Origin: Gemmatirosa kalamazoonensis
GTDB taxonomy: Bacteria > Gemmatimonadota > Gemmatimonadetes > Gemmatimonadales > Gemmatimonadaceae
DNA length: 64,000 bases
Assembly (NCBI RefSeq): GCF_000522985.1
Contig: NZ_CP007128.1
Location: forward strand, 4,448,220-4,512,219
Reading direction: 5' to 3'
In this document: piece by piece, positions 43,214-52,657 of the stretch
Position numbering within the stretch: position 1 is the first letter of the stretch
How the letters are laid out: each line of letters begins with the position of its first letter
Program-made: the position numbers and the translations under genes
The notes under the pieces: model-generated
The model's database searches: none
The model's input: the letters and a program-made list of their open reading frames with translations, nothing else
Told to the model about the DNA's origin: nothing

Positions 43214-44296
43214 ATGCTGAGCGTCGCGTGCCTGCTCGCGCAGCCGGGCGAGGGTGCCGCGCTCGCCGCGCGACTCCGGCCCCGCGCGGTCGTCGACGTG
43301 TTCGAGGACCGGAGAGCGCTCATGACCCACGTGCGCACGCGGCCGGTGGCGGCGGTCGTCGTCGACCTGCGCGACGGCGCGGGACGCGCCACCTCGGGGA
43401 CCGTGCGCGCGCTGCGCGCCGCGGCGCCCGCGCTCCCGCTGCTCGCGCGCTGCCGGCTCGCGGAGCCCGACTGCCGCGCCCTGCTCGACTTCGCGCGCGC
43501 GGGCGGCACCGACGTGCTCGTGGAGGACGCCGGGCTCGAGCCGCTCCTCGCGGTGCTGCGTCCCGGCGGCGCCGCGTCCCCCGACGCGCTCGTGCGACGC
43601 CTCGTCGCCGCCGGGATCCCCGAGCGGTTCGCGCCGCTGCTCGAGCACCTCGTCGCGAACGTCGACGCCCCCGACGCGGCACGCGCCGCGGCGGCGCACC
43701 TCGGCGTCGGACGGCGTGCGCTCGAGCGACGCCTCGCGCGCGCGTCGCTGCCGTCGCCGCGCACGCTCCAGAGCTGGTGCCGGCTGCTCGTCGCGGCGGA
43801 CCGGCTGTGCGGCGATGCGGTCGTCGTGGAGCGCGTCGCGCTCGACGTCGGGTTCTCGTCGGCGAACGCGCTGCGCAACGCGCTCCAGCGTCACGCCGGC
43901 ACCACGCCGTCGGCGGTGCGCGCGGCCGGTGGGCTGGAGGCACTCGTCGCGCGCCTGTGCCGGCACGAGCCCGCGCAGCGACGCGTGGCCGAGCGCGCGG
44001 CGGGCGCCGATGGGGGGTGCGCGCTGTTCCCCGCGCTGCTGGCCCGCCAGCGGCTCGTCGCGCGCCTAACGCAAGCGCTCGTGGTGGCGATCGCGTTCGC
44101 GCGGCGTGACGGGTGTCGCGGCCGATGTGCGGCGCCGCTGCCGATGCGTCGCATCGTGGCGCCACGCTCCCGTCGTCGCACCTCGGCGGCCATGGGAGGC
44201 CGCGCGGCTGGCGGCACGGTGCTCGACCGGAGGGCAACATGTTACAGCGATTCAGGCAGCGTCGACTCGTCGCGATCCTCGCGATGGCCGCGGTGA
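43214..44296 (+). CDS. Transcriptional regulator with receiver-like N-domain and AraC-type HTH
   Basis: The frame gives 360 aa. Residues 1-115 resemble a response-regulator receiver (VAAVVVDLRDG at the phospho-Asp position, then LLARCRLAEPD, GGTDVLVEDAG) but the acidic pocket is incomplete. Residues about 155-240 are an AraC/XylS HTH (AAAHLGVGRRALERRL and VERVALDVGFSSANALRNAL). The last 60 or so residues are Arg/Ser-rich, and the frame overlaps the next gene by 58 bp, so the C-terminus may be an artefact of a lost stop or drift. It probably controls the operon that starts at 44239. Confidence 0.75.
   Translation: MLSVACLLAQPGEGAALAARLRPRAVVDVFEDRRALMTHVRTRPVAAVVVDLRDGAGRATSGTVRALRAAAPALPLLARCRLAEPDCRALLDFARAGGTDVLVEDAGLEPLLAVLRPGGAASPDALVRRLVAAGIPERFAPLLEHLVANVDAPDAARAAAAHLGVGRRALERRLARASLPSPRTLQSWCRLLVAADRLCGDAVVVERVALDVGFSSANALRNALQRHAGTTPSAVRAAGGLEALVARLCRHEPAQRRVAERAAGADGGCALFPALLARQRLVARLTQALVVAIAFARRDGCRGRCAAPLPMRRIVAPRSRRRTSAAMGGRAAGGTVLDRRATCYSDSGSVDSSRSSRWPR
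44229..44234 (+). promoter_or_regulatory. Strong ribosome binding site of the six-Cys peptide gene
   Basis: GGAGGG stands four bases before the ATG at 44239, inside the 3' end of the regulator frame. It selects this ATG over the open upstream frame and predicts high translation of the small protein. Confidence 0.65.
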
Positions 44297-44637
44297 GCAA
44301 TGCCGCGGGATACCTCGGCGCGCAGGCGCCCGCGCCGCGCACGGGCCGACCGACGCCGAAGCTGCTCTCGAACTGCGACGTCACGATCGAGAGCTGCGGC
44401 GGCGATCCGGTGCTCGGCGGCGGCAGCACCAGCGGCGGATGGAGCGCGACCGATCAGACGACCGCCGCGTGCGGTACGGGCGCCCGCGTGCAGTGCCGCA
44501 AGGACTCGAGCTGGAAGTGTCTCAGCTGGGTGCCGCAGTACGCGAGTGGCACCCTCGGCGTCTCGGGCGGTGGCGGAACGACGACGATGGTGTGCAGCTC
44601 GTCGATCACCACCGTCACCATCCTCTACTGGCCGTGA
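44239..44637 (+). CDS. Small secreted cysteine-rich protein, unknown family
   Basis: The protein is 132 aa. A basic start (RFRQRR) and hydrophobic stretch (LVAILAMAAVSNAAGYLGAQ) form a signal peptide, probably cut near residue 29-30. The mature part has six cysteines at 46, 53, 78, 86, 94 and 119, enough for three disulfides, and is rich in Gly, Ser and Thr, ending TVTILYWP. No known family is recognised. It is the first gene of an operon with a lipoprotein, a propeller protein and an ABC exporter, which suggests it is their cargo or ligand; that is inference. Small N-terminal leaders followed by propeller proteins also occur in Bacteroidota (NVEALA-type loci), a loose analogy. Confidence 0.75.
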   Translation: MLQRFRQRRLVAILAMAAVSNAAGYLGAQAPAPRTGRPTPKLLSNCDVTIESCGGDPVLGGGSTSGGWSATDQTTAACGTGARVQCRKDSSWKCLSWVPQYASGTLGVSGGGGTTTMVCSSSITTVTILYWP

Positions 44638-44641
44638 GCCG

Positions 44642-45127
44642 ATGGTGCGACGTCCGCGAATCCTCGGGGCACCGGTCGTCGGCGTGTCGGCGGCGCTGCT
44701 CGCGTGCGCGAGGCCGCGCCCGTTGAGCGATCTGCCGTCGCGGCCCGACGGCGGCCCGACCGCCGTGTTCGCGCTGCGCGCGCGCCAGTGCGACGCGAAC
44801 GTCGCCACGCTCCGCGCGTTCGATCGTCGCACCGTCCGCGGTCGCGTCACGCTCGCCGGCGTGCTGTTGCTCGATGGTGACAGCGCGGCGGCGGGCGTCC
44901 GCAGCCAGCTCCGCGCGTTCGACGTCGACGTCCCGCTCGTCCACGTGTCGGCGCCGACGCGCGACTCGCTCGCCACGCTGATCGATCGCGCGGGTCCATC
45001 GGTGGTCGTGTACACGCGCGCGTACGGCGAGGTGCTGGTGCTGCCGTCGCCGCAGTCGACGCGCCAGCTGGTCGCGTTCCATCGCACGCTCGAGACGCTC
45101 GCACTCCGGCGCCTCCCCACACCGTGA
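44642..45127 (+). CDS. Putative lipoprotein with thioredoxin-like layout
   Basis: The protein is 161 aa, starting 4 bp after the peptide gene. The signal peptide ends in lipobox LLACARPRP (Cys about 22). The body alternates strands and helices (VTLAGVLLLDGD, FDVDVPLVHVSAPTRDSLATLID, GPSVVVYTRAYGEVLVL) in the order of a thioredoxin/redoxin fold, but there is no CxxC pair; only one further Cys (ARQCDAN) is present. It could be a degenerate TlpA-like protein working on the six-Cys peptide. The family is not certain. Its TGA overlaps the next GTG. Confidence 0.68.
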   Translation: MVRRPRILGAPVVGVSAALLACARPRPLSDLPSRPDGGPTAVFALRARQCDANVATLRAFDRRTVRGRVTLAGVLLLDGDSAAAGVRSQLRAFDVDVPLVHVSAPTRDSLATLIDRAGPSVVVYTRAYGEVLVLPSPQSTRQLVAFHRTLETLALRRLPTP

Positions 45128-46170
45128 AGCCGCCTCCGATGAGACGATGGATGATCGTGCTCGCCGCGCTCGGCTGCGAGCGCCCCGCGTCGCCGCCGCC
45201 GAGCGCGGCGCCCAAGCAGGGATCGCAGCGACGGTTCGCGGTCCGCGCTGCCGACACCTCGTGGGTGCGCGCGCTCGACGGGGCCGACGACGCGCCGACC
45301 GCCTCGTCGCTCGCCGCCGACGAGTCGTCGCTCTACGTCACCGACGTCGGCTCGAAGACCGTGCTCGCGTTCGACCAGCGCACCGGCGTGCCGCGCTGGC
45401 GCACGCACGGCGGCGACGACTCGTCGGCGGTGCGCGAGCCGCACGCCGTCACCTCGGGCCGCACCGGCGGCATCATCGTGTACGACGCCGCGCGCGGCAC
45501 GCTCCTGCGCGTCGGTCCCGACGGGCGCGTGCGCCGGTCCACGCCGGCGGCGACGGCCGGCGACGCGCAGAGCATCTGCGAGCTCCCCGACTCGTCGGTC
45601 CTCGTGTCGATCGCCGCGTCGTCGCGCGGGCTCGTTCGCATCGCGCCGAACGGCACCGTGCTCTCGGTGACGCCGCTGCCGTGGCCGGGGCTGCGCGCCT
45701 CCGGTGATCTGCTGAGCGCCGTCTTGCTCGCGCCCACCCCCCGCGGCTGCATCGCCGCGCTCTCGTTCGGGCTCGGCTTCGCGGAGTTCGAGGGATCGGC
45801 GTTCCGGCCAGCCGTCCGCTTCGTCGAGCCGCTCGCGCTGCCGCGCGTGGTCGTGACGCGCACGGAGCACGACGGCGGCGTCACCGTGTCGCAGTCGCTG
45901 GCCGAGCACGTGCTCGGCGCGATCGACGTCGGTGCGACCGATGCCGCGCGGCTCGTCGCGTTCGATGGTCGGAGCGCCGACCGCGCCCACGTCGTCGACG
46001 TGTACGACTCCCTGGGCGCCTACCGCTACTCGATCCGCACGCGCACGCGCGTCGAGGCGCTCGCGGCGACGTCCCGCGCGCTGTTCGTGCTGACCCATCG
46101 CGACGGCAGGCCAACGATCGTCGCGCTGCGCTGGTCGGCGCGCGACACCACCCGCGTCGGGGCGCGTTGA
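45124..46170 (+). CDS. Six-bladed beta-propeller-like lipoprotein
   Basis: The protein is 348 aa from a GTG overlapping the previous stop. A short signal peptide (MIVLAALGCERP) with Cys suggests lipidation. The chain repeats NHL/propeller-type strands: LAADESSLYVTDVGSKTVLAF, GIIVYDAARGTLLRVGPDG, SVLVSIAASSRGLVRIAPNG and VDVYDSLGAYRYSI, about six blades. Such proteins bind ligands or partners rather than catalyse. Clustering of this type with small secreted proteins and thioredoxin-like lipoproteins is seen in other phyla. Function unknown. The ABC ATPase starts 3 bp later. Confidence 0.75.
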   Translation: MKPPPMRRWMIVLAALGCERPASPPPSAAPKQGSQRRFAVRAADTSWVRALDGADDAPTASSLAADESSLYVTDVGSKTVLAFDQRTGVPRWRTHGGDDSSAVREPHAVTSGRTGGIIVYDAARGTLLRVGPDGRVRRSTPAATAGDAQSICELPDSSVLVSIAASSRGLVRIAPNGTVLSVTPLPWPGLRASGDLLSAVLLAPTPRGCIAALSFGLGFAEFEGSAFRPAVRFVEPLALPRVVVTRTEHDGGVTVSQSLAEHVLGAIDVGATDAARLVAFDGRSADRAHVVDVYDSLGAYRYSIRTRTRVEALAATSRALFVLTHRDGRPTIVALRWSARDTTRVGAR

Positions 46171-46173
46171 CCG

Positions 46174-46899
46174 ATGCTCCGCGCCGTCGCACTCCGCAAG
46201 CGCTTCCCGCCCGACACGCGCGCGCTCGACAACGTGACCTTCGACGTCGCGGACGGCGAGGTGTGCACGCTCGTGGGTCACAACGGCGCCGGGAAGACCA
46301 CGACGATGAACTGCTTCCTCGACTTCGTGCGCCCCGACGCCGGCCACGCGGAGGTCGACGGCACCGTCGTGGCGCGCGCGCCGATCGACGCGCGGCGGCG
46401 CCTCGCGTTCCTCGGCGAGCAGGTCGCGGTGTACCCGGCGCTCACGGGGCGCGAGAACGTGCTGTTCTTCGTGCGTCTCGCCGGACGCGTGCGCCTCTCG
46501 CGGGCGGAGGCGGGCGACGCACTTGCCCGGTTCGGCGTACCCGACGCGGCCGTCGACCGCGCGGTGGCGACGTACTCCAAGGGGATGCGGCAGAAGGTCG
46601 GTCTCGCGATCGCCGCCGCGGCGGGCGTGCGCAACCTCATCCTCGACGAGCCGACGAGCGGCCTCGATCCCGCGGCCGCGCGCGACCTGGTCGCGCTGCT
46701 CCGTCGTCTCGCGCACGACGGCTGCGCGGTGCTCGCCAGCTCGCACGACCTCGCGCGCAGCGCCGCCGTGACCGACGTCGCCGTGTGCCTCGCGCGTGGG
46801 CGCGTCGTCGGGACCGTGCGCCGGCCTGGCGACGGCGTCTCGCTCGACGCGTGGTACGCCGCGCGCTACGACGTGCTCGACGCGGAGACCGCGGCATGA
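46174..46899 (+). CDS. ABC transporter ATP-binding protein
   Basis: The protein is 241 aa, a single ABC domain: Walker A GHNGAGKTTTM, Q-loop region AFLGEQVAVYPALTGRENV, signature YSKGMRQKVGLAIA, Walker B NLILDEPTSGLDP and switch His SSHDLA. The form is the ABC-2/CcmA/NatA export group. It pairs with the permease that starts inside its stop codon (ATGA at 46896-46899). It would drive export through, or act on, that membrane protein. Confidence 0.93.
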   Translation: MLRAVALRKRFPPDTRALDNVTFDVADGEVCTLVGHNGAGKTTTMNCFLDFVRPDAGHAEVDGTVVARAPIDARRRLAFLGEQVAVYPALTGRENVLFFVRLAGRVRLSRAEAGDALARFGVPDAAVDRAVATYSKGMRQKVGLAIAAAAGVRNLILDEPTSGLDPAAARDLVALLRRLAHDGCAVLASSHDLARSAAVTDVAVCLARGRVVGTVRRPGDGVSLDAWYAARYDVLDAETAA

Positions 46900-48394
46900 T
46901 CCTCCTCGTCGCGCGCCGCGAGCTGCTCGGCCACCTGCGCAGCCGACGCCTGCGCGCGCTGCTCGCGCTCGTCGTCGCGCTGCTCGCGACGGGGGCGTTC
47001 GTCAACGTGCGCCGCTTCGAGGAGCGCGTGCGCTACGCCGACGCCCTCGAATCGCTGCGCACCGTGAGCGCGGCGCTCGAACGGGACGATCCCGAGAGCC
47101 TCTCGTCTCGCTTCGGGTGGCGCAGCGGCCGCGTGATCGCGGATCCTGCGTTGCGCGCGATCCGTCCGCCCGCGCCGGCGAGCGTGCTCGCGCTCGGCGC
47201 CGACCTCGCCGCGCCAGGCTTCTGGCAGTTCGGCACCGAAGGCGTCTCCGCGGGTCCGGCGCAGGATGCGGATGCCTCCGTGGCGGACCAGCGGACGCTC
47301 GACGTCGCGTTCGTCGTGCGCGTGGTGCTCTCGCTCGTCGCCGTGCTGCTCGCCGCGGAGACCATCGCGGGCGATCGCGAGCGCGGGCTGCTGCGCGCGC
47401 TGTTCACGGCGCCCGTGTCACGGCTCGACGTGCTGTGCGGCAAGTATGTGGGCGGACTGCTCACGCTCTGCGTGCCGGTGTGCGCCGGCACGCTCGCCGC
47501 CGCCGTCGTGATGCTGCTCGTGCGCGCTCCGCTGCTCGGCCCCGGCGTCGGACTGCGACTGCTGTCGCTCGCCGTCGGCGCGGTGCTGTTCCTCGCCGCG
47601 ATGCTCGCGCTCGGAGTGCTCGTGAGCGCGCGCTGTCGCGACGGTCAGACGGCGGTCGTGGCGGCGGTGACCGTGTGGGCGCTGCTCGTCGTCGTGCTGC
47701 CCGGCGGCGCGTCGCTCGTCGCGAGCGTCGCGCGTCCCGTCACGCCCGACGAGCTGCAGCGACAGGCGCGCAGCGAGGGCATCCGGCAGCTCGAGGTCGA
47801 GCGCGCGCGCACGTGCTCGCCGCCGTGTGGCGCCGCGTGTCCGGCACCGACGAGGTGCCGCTCGACAGCGTCGCGTCTCCCGCGCTGCGCCGCGCGTACG
47901 ACGCCGTACGCGAGCCGGTCGAGGCGGAGCTGATGCGGCGCAAGCGCGCGCTGCTCCGTGGCGCGGCGAACGAGCGGCGCCGCGAGCGCGACGCGCAGGC
48001 CGCGCTCGCGGCGTGGATCGACGCGCTGTCGCCGGCCGGTGCGTTCGCGCGCTTCGCCGAGACCGTGGTGGGTACGGGCGCGCCGGCGCTGTCGCGGTGG
48101 GAGCGCGCGGTCGACGACCACCAGGCCCGCCTCGAGGCGGCGACGTTCGACCGGCCGTACGGCACGGAGCTGTTCGCCGCTCGCGAGCGCTACCTCCGCA
48201 TCACGTACCTGCCTAACGCGTTCGATCCCGGTGGGCGCGTGCCGCGCTACGACGAGCTGCCAGCCTTCTCCGCCCCGGCGCCCGACCTCGCCGCCGACGT
48301 CCGTGCCGCGCTTCCGTCGCTCGGTGCGCTGCTCGCGCACGCGCTGGTCTGCCTGCTGCTCGCCGCGCACGCCGTGCTGCGCATGGAGGTGTGA
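46896..48394 (+). pseudogene. ABC-2 type permease interrupted by a frameshift in a (GC)5 tract
   Basis: Translation from 46896 reads well for about 305 residues with five membrane helices (LLALVVALLATGAFV, VVLSLVAVLLAAETIAG, LLTLCVPVCAGTLAAAVVMLLV and two more), then changes character after 47810 and would stop at 47933. The correct continuation (HVLAAVWRRVSGTDEVPLD ... [21 protein letters not shown]) is in the +2 frame to 48394 and supplies the soluble part and last helix. The break coincides with GCGCGCGCGC at 47801-47810; four GC units instead of five would restore one frame of 498 or so residues. It may be a DUF3526-type permease. Sequencing error, phase variation or true decay are all possible. 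Confidence 0.8.
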
Positions 48395-49839
48395 GCGTGC
48401 GCTGCCTCTTCATGCTGCTCGGATGTGCCGTTCTCGCGGTGCGCAGCGCGCACGCGCAGACGAGCGCCGAGTACCTCGACGTGCTGCGCACGCGCAGCGA
48501 CGTGGAGCGCACCGCGGGCGAGCTCGCGCGCGCCGACGCCCTGCTCCGCCGTGCCATGCTCTCGCCGAGCGAGCACGAGGCGAGACGGGCCGATTACGTG
48601 CGGGCGCGACTGGCCTACGTCGGCGCGCTGCTCGCCGCGTCCGGCGCGCGTGCCCACCTCACGATCGCGCGCGCGGTGAAGTCGCGCACCGCCGACGGCC
48701 GGCTGCGCGTCGTGCTCACGCTGCGCAACGAGAGCGCGCCGCTTCCGGTCGACGTGCGCGCGCCCGCCGTGGATTCCACGGAGACGGCGTCGCCCGAGCT
48801 CGACGCGAGCGAGCTCGCTGCGATCACGACCGTGCGTGGCGCGGTGGTCGCGCTGAAGACCGACGTCGGCGCGGCGGGCGCCGTCGTGTCGCGACCGTAC
48901 GAGCGCATCATCGACGCGCTGCGCCCGGGCGAGTCGCGCGACGTGTCGTTCGAGCTGCTCGCCGATCTCGCGGACGCGGTGATCGCCGTCGACGCGGGCG
49001 GGCGTGTGGAGGAGCGGCGGATCCGGCTCGAGGTGGGCGCGGCGGCGAACGTCATCGGCGTGCAGGCGTCGCAGTCGTCGCTCGAGGGTGACCTCGGTGC
49101 GCAGGTCGTCTACGATCTCCGTCTCCAGCGCTCGCGCCCTCGCGCGGTGCCGACGCGCCTCGTCGCGAGCGGCCTGCCGCCGGACCTCGCGGTCGAGTTC
49201 CGCGATCCCGACACGCGCACGCGCCTCGGCCAGCTCCGCTTCCCCGATGGCGCGAACACGGCGCGCGTGCAGCTCGCCGTGTCGCTGCCGGCACGGCCCT
49301 CGTCGGCGGTGCGCCCCGACGCGCCGCTCGCGTTCGACGTCGTCGCGACCGACGAGAGCGACGGCGCCGACGTCGCCCAGGGGAGTGCGCGCCTGGAGCT
49401 CGTGCCACGCGGCGTCGCGCGGCTGGCGCTGCGTCCGGCGACGCTCGCGTTGCAGGCCTCGGCCGACACGGTCACGCCACTCGCGCTCGTCGTGCGCAAC
49501 ACCGGCACCGGACGGGTCACGGACGTGCGGCTGCGGGTCGAGGCGCCGCCGCGGTGGCAGGTGTCGCTCGCACCGGCGTCCATCCCCGCCGTCGCGCCCG
49601 GGGACGAACGCCGCGTCGCCGTCCAGCTCCTGCCGCCGCGCGACGCCGCCGGCGGCGACTACGAGCTGCGCATCGGCGTCGACGACGCGTCCTCCGCGCG
49701 ACGCATCGAGGTGGAGGACAAGCTCGTCCGGGTGCGCGTCCCGGGCGACGGCGGCACGGGCGCGTTAGTCGGGGTGCTCGGCCTCGCCGCGCTCCTCGCG
49801 ATGGCGGTCGCGTACGGGCGCAGGTGGGTGACTCGTTAA
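48391..49839 (+). CDS. Membrane-anchored NEW3-domain protein of the ABC locus
   Basis: The protein is 482 aa from a GTG that overlaps the permease stop (GTGA). A signal peptide ([18 protein letters not shown]) precedes helical and beta-sandwich segments ([19 protein letters not shown]). Residues about 340-440 match the NEW3/NPCBM-associated sandwich ([40 protein letters not shown]). A C-terminal membrane helix ([20 protein letters not shown]) with basic end anchors it. NEW3 proteins often accompany ABC-2 exporters. It is the last gene of the operon. Confidence 0.85.
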
Positions 49840-49903: not shown

Positions 49904-52657
49904 GTGGATCACGCCGAAGCGCTGCGCCTCTCCGAGGACGCCCGACGCACCCGATACTGGAAGCGGTGGGGCCCGTACCTGTCGGAGCGGCAGTGGGGCA
50001 CGGTGCGCGAGGACTACTCGGAGTTCGGCACCTGCTGGGAGTACTTCCCGCACGACCACGCGCGGAGCCGCGCCTACCGTTGGGGCGAGGACGGGCTGTT
50101 CGGCATCGCCGACCGCCAGTGCCGGCTGTGCTTCGCGCTCGCGCTGTGGAACGGCCGCGACCCGATCCTGAAGGAGCGACTGTTCGGCCTCACCGGCAAC
50201 GAGGGCAATCACGGCGAGGACGTCAAGGAGTGCTACTACTACCTCGACGCCACGCCGACGTCGTCGTACCTGAAGGCGCTGTACAAGTACCCGCAGGCGG
50301 AGTTCCCGTACGCGCGCCTGCTCGAGGAGAGCCGGCGGCGCGGCAAGCTGGATCCGGAGTTCGAGCTGATCGACAGCGGCGTGTTCGACGAGGGCCGCTA
50401 CTTCGACGTGCTCGCCGAGTACGCGAAGGAGTCGCCCGACGACGTCCTCGTACGCCTCACCGTCACGAACCGCGGCCCCGACTCGGCGCCGCTGCACCTG
50501 CTGCCCACGCTCTGGTTCCGCAACACCTGGTCGTGGGGGCGCACGGGCGAGCAGTACGGGCCGAAGCCGTCGATGCACGGCCACGAGCCCGCGCGCATCG
50601 TCGCCGACCACCACATGCTCGGCCAGTTCGTGCTCACGGGCGCCGACGCGTCGGACGGCACGCATCCCACGACGCTGTTCACGGAGAACGACAGCAACAC
50701 CGCGCGGCTGTGGGACACGCCGAACGCGGGCCCCGTGAAGGACGCGTTCCACGAGTACGTCGTGAACGGACGCCTCGGCGCGGTGAGCCCGAAGCCCCGC
50801 GGCACGAAGGCGGCGCTGTACTACCCCCTCGTCGTCCCCGCGCGCGCCAGCGTCACGGTGACGCTGCGGCTGCACCCGATGGACGACGACACCGACCCCG
50901 ACGTCGCGCGCGGCTCCGCGTTCGACGCGACGTTCACGCGGCGCATCGCGGAGGCCGACGAGTTCTACGCGTCGCGCCTGCCCGCGGCGCTCACCGCGGA
51001 GGAGCATCGCGTCGCGCGGCAGGCATACGCGGGGCTGCTCTGGTCCAAGCAGTTCTACTTCTACGTCGTGGCGGAGTGGCTGGACGGCGATCCCGCGCAG
51101 CCGCCGCCGCCCCCCGCACGCAAGCGTGGGCGCAACGCGAACTGGCGGCACGTCTACAACGCCGACGTCGTGTCGATGCCGGACAAGTGGGAGTATCCGT
51201 GGTACGCGGCGTGGGATCTCGCGTTCCACACGCTGCCGCTCGCGCGCATCGACCCCGACTTCGCGAAGCACCAGCTGATCCTGTTCCTGCGCGAGTGGTA
51301 CATGCACCCGAACGGGCAGATCCCGGCCTACGAGTTCGCGTTCGGCGACGTGAACCCGCCGGTGCACGCGTGGGCCGTGTGGCGCGTCTACAAGATGACC
51401 GGCCAGCGCGGCAAGCGAGACCGCGACTTCCTCGAGCGCGCGTTCCACAAGCTCCTCGTGAACTTTACCTGGTGGGTGAACCGCAAGGACCCCGAGGGCA
51501 ACAACCTGTTCGCCGGCGGCTTCCTCGGCCTCGACAACATCGGCGTCTTCGACCGGTCCAAGCCGCTCCCGACGGCGGGAGAGCTGGTGCAGGCCGACGG
51601 CACGGCGTGGATGGCGTTCTTCTGCGCCACCATGCTCTCCATCGCGCTCGAGCTGGCGAGCGAGGATCCGGCGTACGACGACGTCGCGTCGAAGTTCTTC
51701 GAGCACTTCGTGGCCATCACCGACGCCATGAACACGCTCGGCGACAGCGGGCTGTGGGACGAGCGCGACGGCTTCTACTACGACGAGATCCATCTCGACG
51801 GGAAGGAGTACCCGCTGCGCGTGCGGTCGCTCGTCGGCCTCATCCCGCTCATCGCGGTGGAGATTCTGGAGCAGCGCGTGATGGACCGGCTGCCGGCGTT
51901 CTCGAAGCGGATGCGCTGGTTCGTCGAGAACCGCCCCGACCTCGCACACTACATCTCGTACGTCGAGCAGCCGACGCACGACGGCGCGACGCGCACGCAG
52001 CGGCTGCTCGCCATCCCGTCGCGCGAGCGGCTCGAGCGCGTGCTGCGCTACCTGCTCGACGAGAGCGAGTTCCTCTCGGACTTCGGCGTGCGCTCCGTGT
52101 CGCGCGTGCACAAGGAGCACCCGTACGTGTTCCACGCGGACGGCGACTCGCTCACCGTGGCGTACGATCCGGCCGAGAGCACGACCGGGCTGTTCGGCGG
52201 CAACTCGAACTGGCGCGGGCCGATCTGGTTCCCCGTGAACTACCTGCTCGTGGAGGCGCTGGAGCGGTACGCGCACTTCTACGGCGACTCGCTGCGCGTG
52301 GAGTGTCCCGTCGGCTCCGGGCGCATGCTCACGCTCGACGAGGTGGCGACGGAGCTGTCGGCCCGCCTCGCGCGCATCTTCCTCCCCGATGCGAGCGGAC
52401 GTCGGCCGTGTCACGGCGACGACCCGCGCTACGCGACCGATCCGGCGTGGCGCGACCTCGTCCTGTTCCACGAGTACTTCCACGGCGACACGGGGCGCGG
52501 CATCGGCGCCAGCCACCAGACCGGATGGACGGCGCTCGTCGTGCGCTGCCTGGAGACCGTCGCGCAGGCGCGCACCGCAGCGCGCCACGACGGCGCGCAC
52601 TCGCTCACCATCACCGACATGTTCGCCATCCCGACTGGCACGCCCGCCGAACCTTGA
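49904..52657 (+). CDS. MGH1-like glycoside hydrolase (GH63-related glucosidase)
   Basis: The protein is 917 aa from a GTG at 49904 (GAGGA 7 bases upstream). The length and the many conserved aromatic motifs ([41 protein letters not shown]) match the bacterial GH63/MGH1-like family. The (alpha/alpha)6 catalytic region has [20 protein letters not shown] with the likely general-acid Asp, and [19 protein letters not shown] with the second catalytic region. No signal peptide is seen, so it is cytoplasmic. It would hydrolyse alpha-glucosides or mannosylglycerate-type compounds; the exact substrate is not known. It stands alone. Confidence 0.9.

Follow-up and report, generated by a model that had tools for sequence, protein, structure and literature searches.

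The window, by which we mean the whole stretch of 64,000 nucleotides of Gemmatirosa kalamazoonensis DNA that was analyzed, contains an operon in which two modules are joined. Module A encodes a small secreted protein, a TlpA-like protein, and a beta-propeller protein, and module B encodes an ABC ATPase, an ABC-2/DUF3526 permease, and a NEW3 protein. The source genome comprises 7.48 Mb on four contigs; G. kalamazoonensis KBS708 has been described as carrying a chromosome of 5,312 kb and satellites of 1,106, 1,041, and 21 kb, all from PacBio-only sequencing (PMC3974934).

Gene layout of the operon

The first gene of the conserved order, that of the small secreted protein P0001 (44239 to 44637; 132 amino acids), lies 4 bp ahead of the gene for the TlpA-like lipoprotein P0008 (44642 to 45127; 161 amino acids; thioredoxin fold). 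The latter shares a GTGA overlap with the gene for the six-bladed beta-propeller protein P0002, a probable lipoprotein (45124 to 46170; 348 amino acids) that may instead start at 45139 or 45151. After a gap of 3 bp follows the ABC ATPase gene (46174 to 46899; 241 amino acids; PF00005, 4.3e-26), which overlaps the permease gene by ATGA, and the permease gene overlaps that of the NEW3 protein P0006 (48391 to 49839), a putative periplasmic adaptor, by GTGA. The tight packing described in the original prediction is borne out, as all named genes lie on the forward strand and overlap or are separated by a few base pairs. Its calls of an ABC ATPase, an ABC-2 permease, a NEW3 protein, and an AraC-type helix-turn-helix (HTH) regulator also agree with Pfam matches to ABC_tran, ABC2_membrane_2, NEW3, and HTH families.

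The regulator had been described as AraC/receiver-like, of which the AraC-type HTH part stands (HTH_18, 2.6e-13) and the receiver-like part was not detected by Pfam. Its 360-amino-acid open reading frame (43214 to 44296, forward strand) shares 58 bp with the small gene, and the C-terminal tail (43940 to 44296) has a weak coding signal, with a G+C content at the three codon positions of 0.76/0.70/0.81 versus 0.83/0.62/0.90 for the whole frame. The last 100 or so residues are therefore doubtful, and the real stop codon may lie earlier or may have been lost. At the other end of the operon, a gene for a 917-amino-acid glycoside hydrolase (MGH1-like/GH63; 49904 to 52657) begins on the same strand 64 bp past the end of the NEW3 gene and could be cotranscribed with it. 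A defense-library search returned generic ATPase matches only, and no match was found among the viral contigs searched.

The permease was originally taken to be one intact gene, a view refuted by a previously overlooked frameshift at a (GC)5 run (47801 to 47810, forward strand). Frame 0 stays open from 46896 to 47933 and is out of register past this run. The N-terminal part in frame 0 (46896 to 47807; PF12679, 2.5e-25) and the C-terminal part in the second frame, which corresponds to the DUF3526 region (47810 to 48394; PF12040, 5.4e-5, just below the cutoff), are 40% and 41% identical, respectively, to a single intact relative of 498 amino acids (P0010). Compared with this relative, the permease gene has an excess of two bases, or one GC unit, and codon-position G+C content flips at the same point, after the run. 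Either the gene is truly mutated, or the extra bases are an indel left over in an assembly made from PacBio reads alone (PMC3974934).

A conserved three-gene unit in Gemmatimonadota

Relatives of the TlpA-like protein occur in Gemmatimonas-like genomes and in several other Gemmatimonadota. Through this protein we gathered module A loci from 24 genomes and checked their gene order by gene calling together with a six-frame check. The order of small protein, TlpA-like protein, and propeller is the same across Gemmatimonadota. A propeller gene lies directly downstream of the TlpA-like gene in every one of the 24 loci. A small secreted cysteine protein is encoded upstream in 22 of the 23 testable loci, a count in which four small proteins (L080, L082, L083, and the window) were assigned mainly by position and for which the small-protein profile used was built from the small proteins of the loci themselves. 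The 24th locus (L042) meets a contig end upstream of the TlpA-like gene, and the region before that gene in L081 contained no convincing member of the small family. Because the loci were collected via the TlpA-like protein, the choice of loci favored neither linkage, and the two linkages support the three genes being a conserved unit. Module A lies between the same two flanking genes in most loci of one genus (g9), which resemble those of a DHH-type phosphoesterase and an Mrp-type ATPase, and is thus old in that genus; in the window it lies elsewhere than between these flanks. No transporter genes were found near module A in the other 23 loci, within the stretch read. In two genomes a second small cysteine-rich gene follows the propeller gene (L037, 4147 to 4524; L084, 4848 to 5153), so that two small proteins may depend on a single module.

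P0001 has the features first attributed to it, namely, those of a secreted 132-amino-acid protein with six cysteines and a strong ribosome-binding site. We found a signal peptide whose AQA cleavage site follows residue 30, six cysteines (residues 46, 53, 78, 86, 94, and 119) that all fall in the mature part, and GGAGG five bases ahead of the ATG. P0001 has no Pfam or NCBIfam match, and 179 genomes from its family yielded no close homologue; the group of small proteins as a whole is likewise absent from Pfam and NCBIfam. Two weak matches whose surroundings were read (L006 and L008) turned out not to be module A. The pattern C-x-x-G-x(3-5)-C-x(5-9)-C-x(12-35)-C is shared by 20 of 20 small proteins and by P0001, which carries two extra cysteines ahead of this core. 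It also arises in 0.95% of shuffled P0001 sequences, an indicative figure, as the pattern was written after the alignment had been seen. The score of P0001 against a family profile built without it was reached by 120 of 2,000 shuffles with composition correction, and hence was not significant, and by 10 of 2,000 without correction. By position, P0001 is the counterpart of the small cysteine family of Gemmatimonadota; it is probably a homologue, and at the level of sequence, homology to the family is weakly supported.

The neighboring protein P0008 had been read as thioredoxin-like without a CxxC motif, and both its single invariant cysteine, which stands in a CxxN motif, and its AlphaFold2 model agree with this. 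The model has a thioredoxin fold (pLDDT 77), and its best VIA-align match is to a DsbE-type protein (Z 10.7, root mean square deviation 3.0, 125 residues aligned), with a Z of 9.8 to ResA. Among the TlpA-like proteins (n = 24), one cysteine (C50 in P0008) and one proline (P119) are invariant. In the model, C50 occupies the site of the first cysteine of CxxC, just past the first strand, and P119 stands directly before strand 120 to 125, as the cis-proline does. The fold, the first cysteine, and the cis-proline are thus common to TlpA, ResA, DsbE, and the TlpA-like proteins. However, the active site reads CxxC in the former and CxxN in most of the latter, in which the resolving cysteine has been replaced, by asparagine in most members. 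The missing resolving cysteine rules out a normal dithiol cycle, and the protein could instead hold a mixed disulfide or bind its partner without chemistry. The TlpA-like proteins gave no convincing match to the Pfam thioredoxin families.

Of the propellers of the family, 12 of 16 match the six-bladed propeller family PF17170; P0002 by itself does not and was placed via the family alignment. The combination of genes had originally been compared to NVEALA loci of Bacteroidota, in which a small cysteine-containing exported protein (NVEALA, PF14055) is encoded beside a six-bladed propeller lipoprotein (PF17170), sometimes in tandem; in three Bacteroidota genomes, NVEALA genes alternate with those of propeller-type lipoproteins. 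This parallel holds for the small protein and the propeller but not for the TlpA-like protein: a search of 247 Bacteroidota genomes, which had no positive control, gave no relative of it. Nor are the small proteins NVEALA proteins, an assignment that we rejected because 0 of 24 match PF14055 with E values up to 1. The loci described here also differ in having a gene for a one-cysteine TlpA-like protein between the small and propeller genes and, in the Gemmatirosa lineage, an ABC/NEW3 set. In the collection of papers searched, none named NVEALA or DUF3526.

A NEW3-type transporter found in several phyla

An alignment of the NEW3 protein was used to scan about 85,000 species genomes, yielding 38 loci in Gemmatimonadota, Ignavibacteriota, Zixibacteria, KSB1, Bacteroidota, Acidobacteriota, and others. 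Where genes were callable, the NEW3 gene is as a rule accompanied by an ATPase gene and one to five permease genes of the same type. No small or TlpA-like gene was detected beside module B in the 38 loci, although absence is weak evidence in low-G+C loci, which were poorly gene-called. In L093, a 100-amino-acid open reading frame precedes the ATPase gene and is no convincing member of the small family. A propeller gene was found in 1 of the 38 loci, which belongs to a second genus (L094, contig G009:C353) and has the order propeller-ATPase-permease-NEW3. Its contig ends inside the propeller gene, and the region where small and TlpA-like genes would be expected falls beyond the contig. The ATPase of the window is 49% identical to the counterpart in this genome over 212 columns. 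In the NEW3 tree, P0006 and the L094 protein are sisters (support 100/99) on a long stem, and P0006 itself sits on a long terminal branch. Linkage of propeller and transporter is therefore known from two genomes only, the window and L094. Module B is a transporter in its own right that occurs independently in many phyla, and the description of the ABC exporter as a dedicated one does not hold in general.

Several module B loci have features of their own. In four loci from different phyla (L076, 626 to 3222; L077, 1872 to 4588; L104, 4540 to 7159; and L108, 5518 to 8154), the NEW3/ABC genes lie beside a receiver-type response regulator and a sensor-like protein, a pair whose place is taken by the AraC-type regulator in the window. 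In the part that was read, one NEW3/TolC locus (L077, 8267 to 17999) combines a single ATPase gene with six genes for ABC-2 permeases.

The ABC set does look like an exporter, as the original prediction held, in that its NEW3 protein has a hairpin bearing an RLS motif for TolC docking. The motif lies near the N terminus of P0006 (R47-x3-L51-x6-S58; 48529 to 48564) and is the means by which adaptors dock to TolC (PMC3391258). Among the 37 NEW3 family rows that cover its positions, R is present in 29, L in 33, and S or T in 31. In the AlphaFold2 model (pLDDT 87), two antiparallel helices meet at a turn (residues 54 to 58) that places the motif at the hairpin tip, followed by beta domains and a C-terminal membrane helix (residues 454 to 481). 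Profile searches of the PDB with NEW3 gave only a few weak matches, three of the best being adaptors aligned on the hairpin (4l8j, AcrA 2k32, and MexJ). Lipoyl and beta-barrel domains are features of periplasmic adaptors (membrane fusion proteins); the model has beta domains, but a Foldseek search with the whole model returned Ig-like beta proteins and no adaptor among the matches listed, so that the adaptor reading rests on the hairpin, and the NEW3 protein has no Pfam adaptor domain. Judging from the model, it would be at most a putative adaptor of unusual build. In five loci (L077, L104, L108, L109, and L124), the NEW3 gene has TolC-like outer membrane efflux protein (OEP) genes next to it; the operon in the window has none, and the source genome encodes many OEPs.

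A close known parallel to this arrangement is offered by MacAB-TolC and related ABC tripartite exporters. In both cases, ATP hydrolysis would drive transport and the adaptor carries an RLS hairpin, and TolC-like genes lie adjacent in some relatives of module B. The candidate substrate is a Sec-exported cysteine protein, as is the enterotoxin STII (PMC5985334). In contrast, MacB is an ATPase fused to a four-helix permease with a large periplasmic domain, whereas the ATPase and the ABC2_membrane_2/DUF3526 permease of module B are separate, and membership in MacB was rejected on this architecture. The adaptor of module B also differs in its NEW3/Ig-like beta domains and C-terminal membrane helix, and no OEP gene is found in the operon.

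A possible route of release and its alternatives

The occurrence of both modules in one operon suggests, without proving, a dedicated release of the small protein. We tentatively favor a system of the cell envelope that centers on a small secreted protein, probably with disulfide bonds, and in which the ABC/NEW3 set releases this protein in the manner of MacAB; we regard this as quite possible. The small protein would cross the inner membrane by Sec and lose its signal peptide, after which its cysteines would pair in the periplasm. There the TlpA-like lipoprotein, with its nucleophilic cysteine and cis-proline and no resolving cysteine, would bind the small protein or hold a mixed disulfide with it, and the propeller lipoprotein would be a binding or docking partner. 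The ABC ATPase and ABC-2 permease would then drive the NEW3 adaptor, the hairpin of which would dock to a TolC-like channel whose gene lies outside the operon, and the small protein in its mature form would be ejected from the periplasm, as Sec-exported disulfide-bonded peptides are by MacAB-TolC. Release of such a peptide from the periplasm by an ABC transporter, an adaptor, and TolC has a precedent in MacAB (PMC5985334). For the operon, we infer the identity of the substrate, its disulfides, and its binding to the TlpA-like protein and the propeller, as well as the docking to TolC, the direction of transport, and a permease that works despite the frameshift. The weakest link is the assignment of the small protein as cargo.

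Module B usually stands alone and module A usually has no transporter nearby, so neither module needs the other, which argues against release of the small protein by the ABC/NEW3 set. The frameshifted permease, the lack of a TolC gene in the operon, the weak sequence link of P0001 to its family, the absence of close P0001 homologues from 179 family genomes, and the Ig-like Foldseek matches of the NEW3 model count against it as well. In the main rival explanation, module A alone would be the functional unit, acting on the cell surface or within the periplasm with no need of an exporter, and the ABC/NEW3 genes, with an unrelated substrate of their own, would have joined it in an ancestor within the Gemmatimonadaceae for coregulation. 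Such a joining, which we find doubtful but realistic, accords with the lack of transporter genes at the other 23 module A loci in the stretch read and with the counts for module B, where a propeller gene was found at 1 of 38 loci and TlpA-like or small genes were detected at none. It fits less well with genes that overlap or nearly touch across the module border, with the repetition of the propeller-ATPase-permease-NEW3 order in a second genus, and with the fast divergence of exactly the two propeller-linked NEW3 proteins, all of which suggest mutual adaptation.

The transporter might also move nothing across the outer membrane. NosDFY-NosL, which serves in the maturation of nitrous oxide reductase, consists of an ATPase, an ABC-2 permease, a periplasmic partner, and lipoproteins, and the operon has the same types of component. 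By analogy, the ABC/NEW3 set would be a mechanical maturation device in the periplasm, in which ATP hydrolysis moves the NEW3 protein as it acts on the small or TlpA-like protein. The permease is of the ABC2_membrane_2 kind, to which NosY belongs, accessory lipoproteins are present, and the operon has no TolC gene. However, the partner here is a NEW3/hairpin protein, the operon has no nos genes, and the hairpin that carries the RLS motif in NEW3 proteins, along with the TolC-like genes adjacent in five loci, speaks against a device of this kind, which we hold to be decidedly unlikely. We consider it very unlikely that the operon is decaying, in which case the frameshift would have abolished the function of the permease and thereby of the transporter, leaving at most module A at work. 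A frame change in a (GC)5 run and the long terminal branch of the NEW3 protein speak for such decay, but all other genes keep the codon-position G+C content of functional genes, the permease retains 41% identity to its intact relative beyond the shift, and indel errors occur in PacBio-only assemblies such as this one (PMC3974934).

Release of the small protein by the ABC/NEW3 set stays our preferred reading, and a broader version of it can be formulated. NEW3 proteins of the ABC-2/DUF3526 type would be a new class of periplasmic adaptors that couple ABC-2 transporters to TolC-like channels in several phyla, recruited in Gemmatirosa to release a secreted cysteine-rich protein that a one-cysteine thioredoxin-like chaperone holds in the periplasm as a mixed disulfide. 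In this full form we think the proposal unlikely. The parts of the operon belong to known folds. As far as the libraries and literature searched show, neither the one-cysteine TlpA-like proteins nor the family of small proteins has been described, and the same is true of NEW3 proteins as adaptors. The source organism is apparently a cultured type strain, which makes the question open to experiment. If the small protein is indeed released in this manner, the cysteine-rich secreted proteins and one-cysteine TlpA-like proteins of Gemmatimonadota, as well as the NEW3/DUF3526 transporters, would gain a testable function, and pairs of small proteins and propellers, such as those of the NVEALA loci in Bacteroidota, would be linked to a transport route.
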